A stretch of DNA of 64,000 nt from Spiroplasma gladiatoris (GTDB taxonomy: Bacteria > Bacillota_I > Bacilli_A > Mycoplasmatales > Mycoplasmataceae): NCBI RefSeq assembly GCF_004379335.1, contig NZ_CP038013.1, positions 930,001 through 994,000 of the forward strand, given 5' to 3'. Position 1 is the stretch's first letter; each line of letters starts with the position of its first letter. Made by a program: the position numbers and the translations under genes. Shown piece by piece: positions 7,365 to 15,526 of this stretch. The notes under the pieces are model-generated. The model made no database searches and had not been told where the DNA came from. It saw only the letters and a program-made list of their open reading frames with translations.

Positions 7365-8057
7365 CTATTTAATATTTTTGACTGTTTTAATTTTTGAAAG
7401 AGCATTTTTTGCAGCTTGTTGTTCTGCTTGTTTTTTATTAAAACCTTCTCCAATGCCATAAATCATTCCATCTAAAATACAATTAACTGTAAATAGAATT
7501 TTATTTTCATGTATTTTTTCTTGGTTAGCAATTATATAGCTTAAATCACTTCTTTTGTCGATTTGAATTAGTTCTTGTAACTCAGATTTAAAGTCTCGAA
7601 TTGAATCTAAAAAATTATTAAGATTATTTTTATTAAAAATTGTTTGATTTAATCAATTATTTAATGCATCATTTCCTAAATCTAAATAAATAGCTGCTGT
7701 TACTGACTCATAAACATCTGCTAAAATTGTATCTTTTTCATAACCTTTAGCTTCATGCTCTCCGATTCCAAGTCTAATATAATTACCTAGTCCGATTGCT
7801 CTTGATAACTTAGCCAAAGTTTCTTGCCTTACTATAGAACTTCTATATTTAGTTAGAATACCTTCATTTGATTTTGGATAGTTTTTAAATAAATACTCAC
7901 TTACTTTTTGTTGTAAAATAGCATCCCCTAAAAATTCTAGTCTTTGATAATTTTTTGCTCGCCTATTTTCATTAGAGTATGAATTATGTGTTAAAGCTTC
8001 TGCATATAAATCACTGTTGATTTGTTTAATTCCGATCTTTGCAAAAAATGATTTCAC
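7365..8057 (-). CDS. rnc: Ribonuclease III
   Basis: Double-strand RNA endonuclease that processes rRNA precursors and structured mRNA, 230 aa. The start is GTG at 8055-8057 (read MKSFFAKIGIKQ), overlapping the plsX stop by one base (TAGTG). The RNase III signature RLEFLGDAIL is near residue 40, with the second acidic site DVYESVTAAIYLD near 115. A C-terminal dsRNA-binding domain runs from about residue 150 and ends in KKQAEQQAAKNALSKI. Length and domain order are normal. plsX-rnc adjacency is common in Firmicutes, supporting co-transcription. Confidence 0.96.
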
Positions 8058-9064
8058 TATTTAATATTTAATGATGTTTTTAAATTACTAATAACATCAT
8101 TTTTTATTGCGTTATATGTCATTTTTAATGTTGCGTAGAATGAAATTACATCACTAGATCCATGTGATTTGAAAGCAATTTTGTCAACTCCTAACACAAT
8201 TGCACCTGCATGGTTTTTATAATCAAACTTTGCTTTAACTTCATTAAATGCTTTTTTTAATCTTAAAGCAGCTAATTTTCTAAATAAGGTTTTTGTGATC
8301 GCTTGCTTTATTTCAAATAATAAATTTTTTGCCATACCTTCTGCCGCTTTTAAAGTCATATTACCAGTATAACCATCCGTAACAACAACATCAACAAAAC
8401 CTGAAGTTACATATCTAGATTCAATATTTCCATAAAAGTTAATTTGTGAGTTATTTTTTAACAATTCATAAGTTTTCTTATGAACTTCTGTTCCTTTCGA
8501 AGGTTCTTCGCCAATATTTAATAATGCAATTTTTGGTTCCTTAACTTTTAAAATTGATTTTGAATAAGCATTTGCCATTAATGCAAATTTTTCTAAATCT
8601 TCAGGATCAGATTCCAAATTAGCACCAACATCTAACAACAAAGTTACTTTATCTTTTATTAAAGTTGGAATGACAGGCATAAAAGCAGGTCTTTCAATAC
8701 TTTCTAATCTTTTAATTATAAAAATACACCCTGCGATAAATGGAGCAGTAGCTCCACCTGTTGTTATCGCATCTGCTTTGCCATCTCTAACTAGTTCTAA
8801 TGCTTTCACCATTGAAGAATCTTTTTTTCTTCTAATATCAATTATGCCATCTGTCATTTCAATAATTTCTTTACAATCTAAAAAATCTACTTGCTCAATA
8901 TTATATTTTTTATTTTTTAATGCATTTTTTATTAAATCTTCTTTTCCTACAAAAATTATTTTTAAGTCTTTTTGCTCGCCTAAAAGTTTAATAGCAGCAT
9001 CAACTGCTGGAATTAAACCATTATCCGAACCCATAACATCAAATGCTATTTTTTTATAATTCAT
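8057..9064 (-). CDS. plsX: Phosphate acyltransferase PlsX
   Basis: Makes acyl-phosphate for the first acylation of glycerol-3-phosphate in phospholipid synthesis; peripheral membrane enzyme, 335 aa. I chose ATG 9062-9064 (MNYKKIAFDVMGSDNG) because AAGGAGGT lies five bases upstream and this matches the family start; an in-frame ATG 12 codons upstream lacks such a site. Motifs include AFDVMGSDNG, TGGATAPF, LLDVGANLESDPE, ALLNIGEEPSKGTE and VVTDGYTGNMTLKAAEG. It is the first gene of the plsX-rnc pair, with its promoter in the 277-bp divergent region 9065-9341. Confidence 0.96.
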   Translation of the reverse strand: MNYKKIAFDVMGSDNGLIPAVDAAIKLLGEQKDLKIIFVGKEDLIKNALKNKKYNIEQVDFLDCKEIIEMTDGIIDIRRKKDSSMVKALELVRDGKADAITTGGATAPFIAGCIFIIKRLESIERPAFMPVIPTLIKDKVTLLLDVGANLESDPEDLEKFALMANAYSKSILKVKEPKIALLNIGEEPSKGTEVHKKTYELLKNNSQINFYGNIESRYVTSGFVDVVVTDGYTGNMTLKAAEGMAKNLLFEIKQAITKTLFRKLAALRLKKAFNEVKAKFDYKNHAGAIVLGVDKIAFKSHGSSDVISFYATLKMTYNAIKNDVISNLKTSLNIK

Positions 9065-9341
9065 AAATACCTCCTTAAAAATTATATATGAATTTTTCAA
9101 GTGTTTATTTTTATAAAAACATTTTTACATTTTAAAAATAATATTTTTTATTTTTATTTTTATTTTTTTTAAAGTAAAATTTCATTATTAAGAGGTCTAA
9201 TTTAGTATTTATAGTATATTTTTTCAATATATAGCAAAGAAACATTACATTTTTTTGTTATTAAATATTTTTGCTCATAATTACTAGAAATAAAGGGGTT
9301 TTTAGTGTAAAATAAATTTAATTAAATTGAGGTGTTTTTTT
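9065..9341. other. Divergent intergenic region between plsX and an ABC ATPase gene
   Basis: 277 bp of almost pure A/T with long T tracts (for example 9121-9180). It must hold the promoters for plsX (minus) and the ABC ATPase gene (plus). I could not assign a convincing -35/-10 pair to either gene because A/T-rich hexamers are everywhere. No reading frame or hairpin stands out. Confidence 0.5.
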
Positions 9342-10352
9342 TTGAAAGATTATGTAATAGAATTTAAAAATTATGAAAAAAAATTTAAAAAAGGAAAGAT
9401 AGGACCATTAGATTTTAATATTGAAAAAGGAAAGATAACAGCTATTTTAGGGTCAAGCGGTAGTGGTAAGTCTGTTGCTATTAAAACTATGATTGGTGCA
9501 ATTTCAAAGTTTTCTGGGGAAGTAAAAGTTTGTGGGTACTCAAAAAAGAAAAGAAATGCTCATTTAGCAAATAAATTTATAAGCTTTTATACACAAATGG
9601 ATTTTTCTCTTTATGAAATGAATGTTGTTACATATTTAAAAAATATGAGCATTGTCTTAGGAATAAAAAGTTCTCAAAGAGATGAAATAATCGATTATTG
9701 ATTAGAATTTTTTGATTTAAAAAAAGATAAAGATAAACAAATTAAAAACTTTTCATGAGGAATGCAAAATAGATTGAGTTTAATTATTTGCGCTATGAAA
9801 AACTCAGATATATTTGTTTTAGATGAACCAGGAGCGAATTTAGATTCAGCTTGACGTAACAAACTAAAAAACTTGCTAATAGATTACAAGAAAAAAGGAA
9901 AAACAATTTTATTTACTTCTCATAATATTGATGAAGTAAATGACTTAATTGATTATTATGTAATTCTTGGTGAAAACGGGAATCAAATGTTTAAAGGGTC
10001 AAAAGAAGAATTAGACTTATATTCTAAATACAAACTTTACTTTTGTGAAGATTTTGATTATGAAGGTTTAAAAACGTTTTTAAACAGCAAAAACATTAAG
10101 GTCTTTAAACATGATAAAATTGAAAACTCTATTGTTTTTGCAACAAGATCAACAAAAGAAATCAATTGAGTATTCTTATATTTGATTAAAGAGACAAGTC
10201 CTGTGCAAAACTTAGTCAGATTACCAATTAATATGAACTCAATTTACAAAGCTATTGAGGGTAAAGACACTATAAAAAAAGTAGAAACAAAAGATAGCAA
10301 TAAAGTAGAAAAAGAAAGATTTTTAAACAAGAAAGAGATAGTTAAAAACTAA
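9342..10352 (+). CDS. ABC transporter ATP-binding protein
   Basis: ATPase subunit of an ABC transporter, 336 aa. I chose TTG 9342 because TTGAGGTG lies just upstream; TTG 9327 in frame has no ribosome-binding site. The nucleotide-binding domain covers residues 1-215, with Walker A GSSGSGKS near residue 38, signature FSWGMQNRL (a variant of LSGGQ, with a UGA Trp), Walker B IFVLDEPG and switch His in FTSHNIDEV. The last 120 residues form an extension of the type seen in drug/lipid exporter ATPases, ending in a Lys-rich tail. The downstream gene is not a permease, so the partner is unknown; the divergent membrane protein at 5490-7295 is one candidate. Confidence 0.9.
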
Positions 10353-10383
10353 TAATGAAGTTTTTAATATAGGTGGGAGTATT

Positions 10384-11259
10384 ATGTATTACATTTTATG
10401 AGTCAGAAATAATTTATTTTATGTTCTAGATCAAAACAGAATATTGTATGGAATGTACAATGATTATCAAAAAGCATTAATAGTTTGTCAACAATTAAAT
10501 AGAGGATATAATCCAATTGGAATAAACTCACAACCTATCACTTATCAATATCCCAATAATAACTTTTATAGACAAATGTCAATTAATTCGCCAATGCTTC
10601 CTTATAATTATAATCAACAAGTTCAAAATTATAATCAAATGGTTATGCCAACTCAATACGGAGTTGTTCAACCTTATGATAATCAAATGATTAAAAATCA
10701 ATTACCTATAAATAACAACTTAGGTCAAGCACCTATAGCTTATCAAGAAAGTATAAATTTTCAACCGAATTATTCTAACCAAGTGGCAAATGACATTAGC
10801 TATGGTACAAATAATTATTTAGAAGAACCTATTGTTCAAAACTCTAACCTTAATTCCGTTCAACAAGCAAATCCAGTTCAACAAGCAAATCCAGTTCAAC
10901 AAGCAACTCCAGTTCAACAAGCAACTCCAGTTCAACAAGCAACTCCAGTTCAACAAGCAACTCCAGTTCAACAAGCAACTCCTGTTCAACAAGCAACTCC
11001 TGTTCAGCATTCAGATTCAGAAACTGTTCAAGCGCAATATACAGTTCAAAAAGAAGTAAGCGATGAGCAAAATCTTCAAAATAATAATGAAAATGAAGAA
11101 TGATACATTGACTCAAGTAAAATCAAAAACTTTATTGATAAATTCTCAAATGAAGATTTTGATTCAGCATCAGAAGATCAAGAAGTTGTTGAGTTAGATA
11201 ATAAAAACGAAAAAAGTCTTTCAAGAAAAGAAAAAAGAAAACTAAAAAAAGAAAACTAA
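10384..11259 (+). CDS. Asn/Gln-rich protein with eight VQQA(N/T)P repeats
   Basis: Unrecognised 291-aa protein. The start ATG 10384 has AGGTGGG upstream. The first 40 residues (MYYILWVRNNLFYVLDQNRI) look folded or membrane-associated. Residues 41-155 are dominated by Asn, Gln, Tyr and Pro. Eight 6-residue repeats lie at about residues 159-206, then an acidic stretch, a short DSSKIKNFIDKFSNEDF segment and a very basic end (SRKEKRKLKKEN). Most of it is likely disordered. It follows the ABC ATPase by 31 nt and ends at a terminator shared with the convergent cysteine-rich gene. A scaffold or nucleic-acid-binding role is possible, but nothing in the sequence proves it. Confidence 0.8.
10858..11001 (+). 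repeat. Eight tandem copies of an 18-bp in-frame repeat
   Basis: Unit gttcaacaagcaactcca, encoding VQQATP (VQQANP in copies 1-2). Copies are almost identical, differing at the A/C of codon 5 and the last base. A degenerate ninth unit (VQHSDS) follows. Because 18 is a multiple of three, gain or loss of a copy would change protein length but not frame. Other frames of the array also stay open, which creates spurious reading frames on both strands. Confidence 0.97.
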
Positions 11260-11265
11260 AATATT

Positions 11266-11303
11266 AAAAAATCTGATCGTTTTTAAAAATGATCAGATTT
11301 TTT
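11266..11303. terminator. Bidirectional terminator between convergent genes
   Basis: Inverted repeat AAATCTGATC / GATCAGATTT with an A/T-rich 12-nt loop, flanked by A and T runs on either side. It serves the repeat-protein gene on the plus strand and the cysteine-rich gene on the minus strand, whose stop lies inside the 3' T tract. Confidence 0.9.
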
Positions 11304-11517
11304 ATTTATCGTACTTAGCTTTATTTTCTTGTTGTCTCGCACTTCCTTCAGAACAACAAGGACATTTTTTTTCTAAACACACTTGGCAACTTATACATTT
11401 CAAACAACTTTTACATCCATGAAACGAACCCGAACAAACTCTACAAGTGTAGCAATTATGAGCTCCTCCAGGACAACAAGCATCTGTTGATGATGAATTT
11501 TGCTTTGGTAAAGGCAT
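11302..11517 (-). CDS. Small cysteine-ladder protein (13 Cys in 71 aa)
   Basis: Unrecognised 71-aa protein with a strong AAGGAGGG site seven bases before its ATG. Cysteines are at residues 14, 15, 22, 25, 28, 35, 38, 41, 44, 47, 52, 54 and 55. The core CKSCLKCISCQVC is a run of five cysteines each three residues apart, preceded by CYTCRVC and followed by CPCC; two histidines (20, 33) lie nearby. There is no signal peptide and the tail is charged. This looks like a metal-binding or multi-zinc protein, possibly also redox-active; I cannot match it to a family. It begins 40 nt after the FtsX-like permease gene and is probably co-transcribed with it. Confidence 0.82.
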   Translation of the reverse strand: MPLPKQNSSSTDACCPGGAHNCYTCRVCSGSFHGCKSCLKCISCQVCLEKKCPCCSEGSARQQENKAKYDK

Positions 11518-11557
11518 TTAAATCCCTCCTTAAATTATGTAATAATTATATCAAAAA

Positions 11558-14500
11558 TTAATTAACCAAATAAGTTAGTGGTTGTTTTTTTATTTGTCAC
11601 ATCGCAGCTAATCAGCCAATTAACATGATTCCTCCAATTGCAATAAATGAAACAAAAGGAATATAAACTAAAATTGGTAAAGAAATTAAAACTTGAAGTT
11701 TGTTTCAAATTACAATTTTTACAATTCACCACATTAATCAAGACATACCGTACGCACCAAAGAACGTAATTAGTGATCCTGTTAAGTACCGACCCATCAC
11801 CATTCAGTTAACTTGAATATCTTTATAACCCATCGACCTCATAATCGTTATTATATTAATGGCATCTGTTACGACAATATTCATAATAACTATTAATAAT
11901 ATAACTAATAATAAAATATCAATTAATATATACATTAACATCGTATTTGACATTTCTGCCATTATGGCATTAATAGCTGCTTTTAAAAGTGGAAGTACAA
12001 CTAAGCTCATGTTTAAAGAACTTGCACTTAAAGCATATACCATCTTATCATCTGCGTCTTTAACAAATTTACTTATAAATGTTTTGATTGGTTCAAGTAT
12101 TGCGTTTGGAATTTGAATATTGTTACTTTTTAAAATACTTTCAAAATTTTTAAAATAAATATCTAAAGAAGGTCCTATCCATTCTTTTGCATTAACTCCA
12201 GATGAAGTTAAGACTGTTGTAGTTGTGAGTTTATTTTCTAAGTTTAACTGAGATTGTTGTAATTTTTTTAAGTCAAAATCTCCCTCTAAACTTTTATTAA
12301 TACTATATTTTTTATTAAAGAATTGCTCATCGTTTGGTATTAATTCATCTCCAAATCTTTTAAGTAAATAATTGTAATCTACAAATATATTTTGTGACAT
12401 ATTATCTGCAGAAACAATTCCTACAATATTTGCTTTTAATCCAATTGTCCCTTCCCTACCAAGTTGAAGGTCAAATGTATCTCCTACTGAAAGATTTAGA
12501 ATTTTTGCAATTCTTTGCGAAACTAATACATTAGTATTAATCTCATTATCGTATCTTAATAATTCTAGCTGATTGTCTCCAATATCATTTATATTAAATA
12601 TAGTTCTAGGATTTCCAAATTTACCAGTGGTATCAATAGCTATTACGTTAGTATTATCAATATCAATATTTTGGTTATTTGTTACATAAGAACTAATTCC
12701 ATATGCTAATAAATCTGTACTTGAATTAAATAACACAGTATTTGAAGCTATAAATTGTTCATTAGTTTTATCATTAGAATTAAAATCTTTAATAGCAAAT
12801 TCAGATATTCAACTTTTTAAAATTGTATTTAAATACTTATCTACTTCATTAACCTGAGTTTGGTCGTCATCTGTTCCATTTTGATTTCAAGATCCAGAGT
12901 TAACTTTACCACCTAAATAGTTTTTTAAAATATTTTGACGATATCCTTCAACATTATTACAATCACTATAACCAGTTTCTGTTGATACACATATATATTT
13001 AGCAACATCACTTAGTTTTACAGCATTATTTAAGTTTTCGTCTTTATTTTTAATGTGATAAAGATTGTTATCACTATCGCTTCACTTAGATACATTATCA
13101 AATAAGTTTTTTGCAGCCATTTTTTTTTCATCTAAACTTGTTTTTTGATCTAAAATTTTATTTAAATTTAATAACATATTATTCATTGCATTTTCGAATT
13201 GATTATCAGAAAGTTGGTCCAAAGGATAAGTTAAAGAAATAATGTTGTAAAAAATTGGCACTATTCTTTTGTAACTATCTAGAACCATTTCATCGATTTT
13301 TGCTTTGTTATTTGTTCTTAATATTGATATTTTTTCCATTAAAATTGATATTTGATCATATTTATTAAAATATTTTTTTCCTTCTTTTTCAATGAAATCT
13401 TCTACACTTCCAGCTTCATTATAATCAACATAATTTATTTTTGGTGTATTTGAACTATTGTCAACTACAATTTTATCTTTAATAGCTAATTTAGAGTTTC
13501 TTCAATAATTATAAATATGATTCGTGTCCTTTGTATAAATATTAAAAGCTCCATTTATCATATTATTGATTATTGGTAATGCTCTCATTTGAATTGTAAA
13601 TAAAAACGAGCTAAAACCTATTAAAATCATTATTAAAATAAATTTACCTTTACCAAAGCTTATAAAGTTTTCTTGCATTCGATAGGAAAAACCTAAATCC
13701 TTTTTTTTCAAAAAGTATAATAATAGTCGATTAAATGCAAAATAAATTAAAGTTATAGGCACAGTTATATAAATTGCAATAGAAAGTCATTTGTAATTTT
13801 TTTGTTTTGGAGCATTGTTCATTAAGTCTAAAGCACCCTCATTTAGATAAGAATATATAACAAAATATGAAACTAATGCAAAGATTAATGGAATAATAAA
13901 AATTAAAACAACTAAAAAGATTGGATTTGTGTAAATTTGTTGATAGTCAAAAATTACAATATTTGCATATACTTCACTTGCAGCTTTTATTTGAAAAGGT
14001 ATTGATAAAATATAGCCAAATATAATAGCAACAAACATCGTCATAAAGGTTTTTATACTAAATATTCAAGTTAACTCTCTTGTTTTATAACCAAGGGATT
14101 TAAAAACTCCTAGTTGTTTTCTTGTATTGTTAATTTCTTTTTTTAATACAAAAGTTATAAAAAAGAAAGCTAAGAATAATAAAATCCCTCCAATAATACT
14201 AAATATTCAAGTCATAATTTTTAGATTTGTTAATTTATCTATTTGCTCATGTTTTCCCATTGCTTTAAATGGAGTAATACCAGCAGATATCATTCCTTCA
14301 AAATTTATAGTTGGATCTGATACGATATAAGAATTCATATTATATTTAGAATTTTTTACCATTCTATCTTGGTCGATAGAAGCACTATTTGGCAACATAA
14401 AATTCTCACCTAAAAAGTTATTTGAAAATAAAACTTCTTCATTAAAAAATGACTTATCTACATAGATTTGAGAATAGTTATTAGTAGAATCTAAATAGCT

Positions 14501-15526
14501 TTCATGGCTTGGGGTTAATGCTGAATACTTATTTGCAATACCAATAATCCTAAAGTTTAAAGAGATTTTGCTATTAGCTTTTGTTGGATAACTTACTGAA
14601 AATGTATCCCCTATTTTTAAGTTATTTGACTTTAAAAATAAATCATTTACAAACGCTTCAATTTCACCACTATCTTTTGTAACTTCTTCTAAAATTGTTT
14701 TAGTTGATTTTTGAATAACTAAATTATTTAAATTAGCATCTTTTTGACTAGTTAACAATGAGTTATAACTTTCAATAGAGTAAGTGTGGTTTACATTTCC
14801 TACTGCTGATTTTGTATATAACTTTTGAAATACATTATAGTTTAAATCCTGTTCTTTTTGATTAATGATACTTAATATTTTATTTGTGATATATGATTGA
14901 ATATTTCTCGAACTATTAAAGAGTGCCATTTCTTCAAAGACTTCTGATTTGAAGACATTGGCAAATTTAATTGTTGTATTACCTTCATCGTCAACAACAT
15001 ACGAGTGTTCTTTTGAATTTTGATTTTTTTTGTCAGGTTCTACTTTTACTTTGTACTCGTAATCTTTTCCACCTCTTGAAAGGTAATAACAAAAGTTATA
15101 AATTATATCTGCTTTAAATTGCAAAGCGGCATTTTCATCTACTTTTTTAATTTTATTTGAATGTTCTACTCAATTGTTTACATAATCATCAATTAACTCA
15201 TGTGCTTCATTTGTAAATCACCCAAAACCATCAGTATATTGTTTTGTAATTTTAACAGTTTCTTGTTCGTAATTTATTTTGTAAGGATTACCTTTATACA
15301 AAACATCATCCATAAAATTAGGATTATATCTAAACTTATATTGCATTTGAGTATCTCATTGATTTGTATTATTTTTAATGCTTTGTGCTTTTAAAGAAAG
15401 TTGCAAAGGAGTTGCTAACATACCCATAACTATCATTGTAAAGATAGACAAAAAAAGAATTGTCCCTAGGGTTTCAACTCAAGATTTTATAAAAAGTTTT
15501 AGATAAGATTTGAATATATTTCTCAT
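11558..15526 (-). CDS. Giant FtsX/MacB-like ABC permease
   Basis: 1322-aa membrane protein with a duplicated FtsX layout. An N-terminal helix (residues ~12-35) is followed by a ~400-residue external domain. A block of four helices spans about residues 438-600, including LGVFKSLGYKTRELTWIF, the typical FtsX loop. Another helix (~628-647) and a second external domain of ~540 residues follow. The final four helices (~1195-1315) contain the matching loop IMRSMGYKDIQVNWM. Such proteins pair with a LolD/MacB-type ATPase to move lipoproteins, lipids or peptides, or act mechanically on the envelope. No ATPase gene is adjacent. Many UGA Trp codons are present. Start ATG 15524-15526 has AAAGGAA upstream. 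Confidence 0.88.

Follow-up and report, generated by a model that had tools for sequence, protein, structure and literature searches.

A cysteine-rich gene and its expression signals

The window analysed here, the whole stretch of 64,000 nt from Spiroplasma gladiatoris, carries on its minus strand, at 11302-11517, a gene for a 71-aa cysteine-rich protein that we call Q. A sequence-only reading had singled out this gene, without giving its strand, as encoding 71 residues with 13 cysteines, an exact i,i+3 ladder across residues 35-47 and two exact CC pairs, a description that holds when the open reading frame is read residue by residue. The relevant features are:

8057-9064, minus strand: plsX, which lies next downstream of Q in most relatives
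9327-11259, plus strand: a pair of genes (ABC ATPase, repeat protein) that separates Q from plsX and runs opposite to both
10384-11259, plus strand: the repeat protein of that pair (291 aa), convergent to Q, with near-identical VQQATP-type repeats at about 10880-11010
11265-11304, no strand: bidirectional terminator-like palindrome, common to Q and the convergent gene ending at 11259
11302-11517, minus strand: Q (71 aa), with its ATG at 11517 and the end of its stop codon at 11302; no TGA codon is needed
11523-11531, minus strand: ribosome-binding site AAGGAGGGA, 5 nt before the ATG of Q
11545-11553, minus strand: extended -10 promoter-like element TGATATAAT, a consensus match inside the 40-nt gap upstream of Q
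11558-15526, minus strand: FtsX-like permease (1322 aa, Pfam FtsX match), directly upstream of Q

As had been proposed, a permease gene precedes Q, the gap from its stop to the start of Q being 40 nt, and Q has both a strong ribosome-binding site and a shared terminator. In this window the two plus-strand genes separate Q from plsX; in one other genome (G044, locus L041) the ABC ATPase and repeat-protein genes come after Q in the same orientation.

Our promoter scan of the window did not list TGATATAAT because no -35 element is present. Among orthologues, most members of g1 (the window's genus) have TATAAT about 25-45 nt upstream of their start codon, and several members of g8 (the Citri clade) have it inside the gap between ispG and Q, so that Q very probably has a promoter of its own. 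Copies of Q from both major clades are equipped with their own TATAAT and ribosome-binding site.

Q is a real and strongly conserved gene

Markov-1 shuffles of the window yield 0.03 ORFs of 40-150 aa with at least 9 Cys, and the highest count reached is 10 Cys. The real window contains two ORFs of this class: Q, with 13 Cys, and an artefact that runs antisense to the VQQATP-type repeat. The question is settled by homology, dozens of genomes giving relatives at E values from 1e-10 to 1e-38, and dN lies well below dS (dN/dS about 0.08-0.23 in well-diverged pairs; the few very close pairs hold too few changes to be judged in this way). Judged from these sequence comparisons, Q is a real gene, and the homologues, the dN/dS values, the TATAAT element and the ribosome-binding site together support the initial impression of a real gene with strong expression signals of its own. 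Within g1, identity to the window protein is 73-87% for Q, compared with 64-77% for PlsX, 58-71% for Rnc and 74-92% for L28; conservation of Q is comparable to that of ribosomal protein L28. Very small genomes, in other words, conserve Q about as strictly as they do a ribosomal protein.

Distribution

Of 60 genomes of the taxonomic family, 36 gave relatives of Q in whole-genome searches: 20/20 in g1, 13/14 in g8 and one each in g4, g5 and g6, with 7 of the 12 genera lacking Q. Extending the search by profile to the order (298 genomes) and the phylum (392) added a single genome, G073 from family f9, whose Q-like protein carries C47Y and G34R; a match in G186 (E 0.01, stops inside) was taken as chance. 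A scan of a species-genome collection returned Spiroplasma records only (S. phoeniceum, S. poulsonii and a Spiroplasma sp.), and a plasmid search one S. citri record. A phage origin was rejected, there being no match in phages or viral contigs. The profile search of relatives suggested by the sequence-only reading therefore does find homologues, but they do not make up an order-wide family, and on the genomes searched Q is essentially confined to spiroplasmas, which are wall-less and associated with insects and plants.

Additional long-form copies occur in G015, G021 and G073, in other, mobile-looking contexts among unrelated genes. Second long-form copies have as neighbour a 275-aa membrane protein at loci L031 and L053 and, at L048, a lipoprotein-like ORF containing an HELGH motif. 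Decay of Q is seen in the Citri clade (L072, L077, L083): a deletion in G020 has left just the last bases of the gene, G026 combines a frameshift with an IS-like insertion upstream, and G025 has a frameshift.

Genomic context across relatives

Relatives in g4, g5 and g6 share the arrangement fakA-Q-plsX-rnc-smc, g4 having one more ORF between Q and plsX, and have no FtsX-like gene at this locus; in g1 the FtsX gene is placed between fakA and Q. The link to the FtsX-like gene, to which the sequence-only reading had drawn attention, is consequently weak: the pairing exists in g1 and is missing at the Q loci of g4, g5, g6 and g8, and we rejected it as a functional clue. The pairing is confined to g1 and is perhaps not ancestral.

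In g8, Q lies downstream of ispG and away from plsX. In G015 and in the S. citri BLH-13 plasmid record, ispG and Q form a single 427-aa frame, joined by one A fewer in an A run, with the ribosome-binding site and ATG of Q still present. The joined frames are found at loci L049 and L107, and the plasmid record (NZ_CP047429.1, L107) also carries the fibril gene fib. We recognised no metal sensor or metal transporter gene beside Q and no sensor gene in about 28 neighbourhoods, a minority of the neighbours in these having been run through family models.

Cysteine and histidine anatomy

The window protein has cysteines at positions 14, 15, 22, 25, 28, 35, 38, 41, 44, 47, 52, 54 and 55, which include the ladder C35-38-41-44-47 and the CC pairs 14-15 and 54-55. 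Cysteine makes up 18% of the protein and about 29% of its conserved core, the 42 residues from 14 to 55, which has 12 Cys positions and H20 and follows the common pattern CCPxxxHxCxxCRxCxxxxxxCxSCxxCIxCxxCxxxxCxxC. Across 30 Q sequences C14, C15, H20, C22, C25, C28, C35, C41, C44 and C52 are invariant, while C38, C47 and C55 are each kept in 29. Four sequences have V or M in place of C54, and the one sequence with R at position 55 keeps C54. Since at least one of C54 and C55 is always present, one ligand of that pair appears to be enough and the constant set amounts to 12 Cys positions plus one His. Four residues that are not ligands are equally invariant (P16, R26, S37 and I42), and S29, G34 and K50 nearly so.

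Outside the core, the long form (g1, g4, g5, g6) ends in a basic tail like GSxRQQENKxKYxK, which in the window protein reads GSARQQENKAKYDK; the short form of the Citri clade, at about 49 aa, lacks it. By eye, no signal peptide, membrane helix or export signal is recognisable. AlphaFold2 models of Q show short helical turns only, at low to middling confidence (pLDDT 70, and 67 for the short form, which is no better), so that they cannot be used to place a metal site.

The invariant Cys/His set makes it very likely that Q binds metal. One might instead propose that Q acts metal-free, as a thiol redox or persulfide buffer, in favour of which one can cite the high Cys content and the lack of a visible export signal. 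We consider this most improbable: position-by-position conservation of the cysteines, accompanied by an invariant histidine and invariant residues in the spacers, indicates a built metal site rather than bulk thiols.

Association with IspG and iron-sulphur proteins

The arrangement in the Citri clade, where Q follows ispG and is joined to it in frame in G015 and S. citri BLH-13, invites the idea that Q is a taxon-specific helper supplying IspG (and IspH) with electrons or a cluster. We regard this accessory role as unlikely, yet by count the co-occurrence is strong. The same 39 of the 60 genomes have IspG and SufBD, and all of these but G025 (38 genomes) have IspH too; Q accompanies IspG and SufBD in 35 genomes and stands alone in just one, with four genomes having IspG and SufBD but not Q and 20 having neither. 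Flavodoxin was not found in 59 of the 60 genomes. G033 alone encodes one, of 147 aa, after an aspartyl-tRNA synthetase-like gene (L108). It also fits that frameshifts in Q occur in G025 and G026, two genomes whose ispH is missing or broken, although general genome decay may be the cause of both losses. Lastly, S. citri IspG failed to complement E. coli lacking ispG, carriers not having been co-expressed with it, and IspG was concluded to need taxon-specific electron carriers (PMC8896826).

Several observations argue against an accessory role. Placed on a PlsX+Rnc tree, the association between Q and the Fe-S genes comes down to about four changes and is not significant in an independent-pairs test; strong as the co-occurrence is by count, these changes are too few to support its significance. 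Of the 39 IspG genomes, 37, among them those of the Q-less g9 and G020, gave a small Fer4_13-like single-cluster ferredoxin (the matches fall below the family cut-off, with CxxCxxC...CP and all four Cys present in the loci read), which is the more likely donor; we accordingly lowered the case for Q as sole electron donor of IspG. Q is not needed for ispG to be retained, as g9 (three genomes) and G020 show. Conversely, G006 (85% complete) retains Q although SufBD, IspG and IspH were not found there, and G073 has it although IspG is lacking from all five f9 genomes. Moreover, Q has its own -10 element in several Citri-clade genomes, two other genes are equally faithful neighbours in that clade, and the fused frame retains the start of Q and may be incidental. 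That Q represents a new class of mini-metalloprotein, a spiroplasma-specific cluster or electron carrier for IspG that has become joined to the enzyme in S. citri, strikes us as a long shot. If true, it would explain the inactivity of S. citri IspG in E. coli, and if Q serves IspG at all, a missing part of the spiroplasma isoprenoid route would have been found and the published failure to complement accounted for.

Q as a candidate metal-thiolate mini-protein

Our first choice, held tentatively, is that Q serves as a buffer or donor of metal, and we think it somewhat more probable that this metal is zinc than that Q holds an Fe-S cluster or copper. Q would then be a small cytosolic metal-thiolate protein, expressed from its own promoter and folding around its metal ions. 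In the 42-residue core, the 12 conserved Cys positions and one His would bind about three divalent ions, most likely zinc, with a basic helical tail added in the long form. As a soluble intracellular zinc buffer/donor, Q would keep zinc in thiolate clusters, to be handed to a conserved partner or docked on it. The share of cysteine in the core falls in the range of metallothioneins. Retention of Q in G006, where no SufBD, IspG or IspH was found, counts in favour of a metal-thiolate protein, as do the additional long-form copies in other contexts, one of them in another family (G073). Against a zinc buffer/donor stand the overlapping CxxCxxC triads of Q, a feature commoner among Fe-S sites than among zinc sites, and the fact that we recognised no metal sensor or transporter gene beside it.

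Conservation beyond the ligands adds a further twist. A plain reservoir would not call for residues as conserved as P16, R26, S37 and I42 (and nearly S29, G34 and K50), which suggest a defined fold or a particular partner; the pure store or redox buffer envisaged by the sequence-only reading fits less well than it implied. Such residues would be expected if Q were a structural zinc adaptor, a zinc-knuckle mini-protein sitting on a fixed partner such as RNA, the ribosome or a complex of lipid synthesis or of the membrane in the vicinity of FakA/PlsX. Conservation at the level of L28, the basic tail of the long form and placement between fakA and plsX in g1, g4, g5 and g6 are all consistent with an adaptor. 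However, Pfam and PDB reveal no zinc-ribbon, RING or knuckle similarity, Q is denser in cysteine than usual structural zinc domains, and the Citri form lacks both the tail and the fakA/plsX context. We therefore doubt that Q is an adaptor, but both this and a role as Fe-S/IspG helper rank close behind the zinc buffer/donor.

Comparison with known systems

The first impression that Q belongs to no known family is upheld by searches of Pfam, NCBIfam, PHROGs and PDB sequences and by Foldseek, which returned no relative. None of 30 Q members has a Pfam or usable NCBIfam match, PHROGs holds no relative, the PDB sequence search gave no metallothionein and no significant match, and Foldseek against the PDB found nothing related, low-confidence models making that fold comparison weak. 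The literature (titles and abstracts) yielded nothing relevant on a spiroplasma metallothionein or cysteine-rich protein. By these comparisons, Q is a strongly conserved, spiroplasma-restricted family that is unnamed in the libraries searched.

Small zinc domains (LIM, nuclear-receptor, zinc ribbon) share paired CxxC ligands with Q, and the PDB search gave matches to such domains at chance level (E 0.4 to 7). None is significant, however, and Q is denser, with 12 Cys in 42 residues. Membership in a known zinc-ribbon family, named by the sequence-only reading as evidence against its view, was not found, nor was any zinc ribbon, LIM or RING match by model or by fold, the fold comparison being weak given the low-confidence models.

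Bacterial ferredoxins (Fer4) have CxxCxxC triads like those of Q, which co-occurs by count with IspG/IspH and in S. citri is read in one frame with IspG, itself a [4Fe-4S] enzyme. Unlike them, Q lacks the CxxCxxC...CP layout and has no Fer4 match, and the genomes hold a separate Fer4_13-like ferredoxin.

Bacterial metallothioneins are metal-regulated and often encoded next to an SmtB-type repressor, whereas no smtB-like regulator was recognised beside Q. Q also has no sequence match to them, its CxxC ladder and CC pairs are not a known metallothionein pattern, and it has invariant non-Cys residues and is restricted to spiroplasmas. In Pseudomonas, metallothionein genes are not accompanied by an SmtB-type repressor, and a bacterial metallothionein with Zn3Cys9His has been described (PMC7387436). 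Like SmtA, the Pseudomonas metallothioneins and MymT, Q is small and rich in cysteine (within the 15-35% typical of the group), has one or few His and carries no export signal, its cytosolic location being judged by eye. By analogy, Q would be predicted to bind several divalent ions in thiolate clusters, and, should it prove to be a store of the metallothionein type, it would represent a new kind for the Mollicutes.
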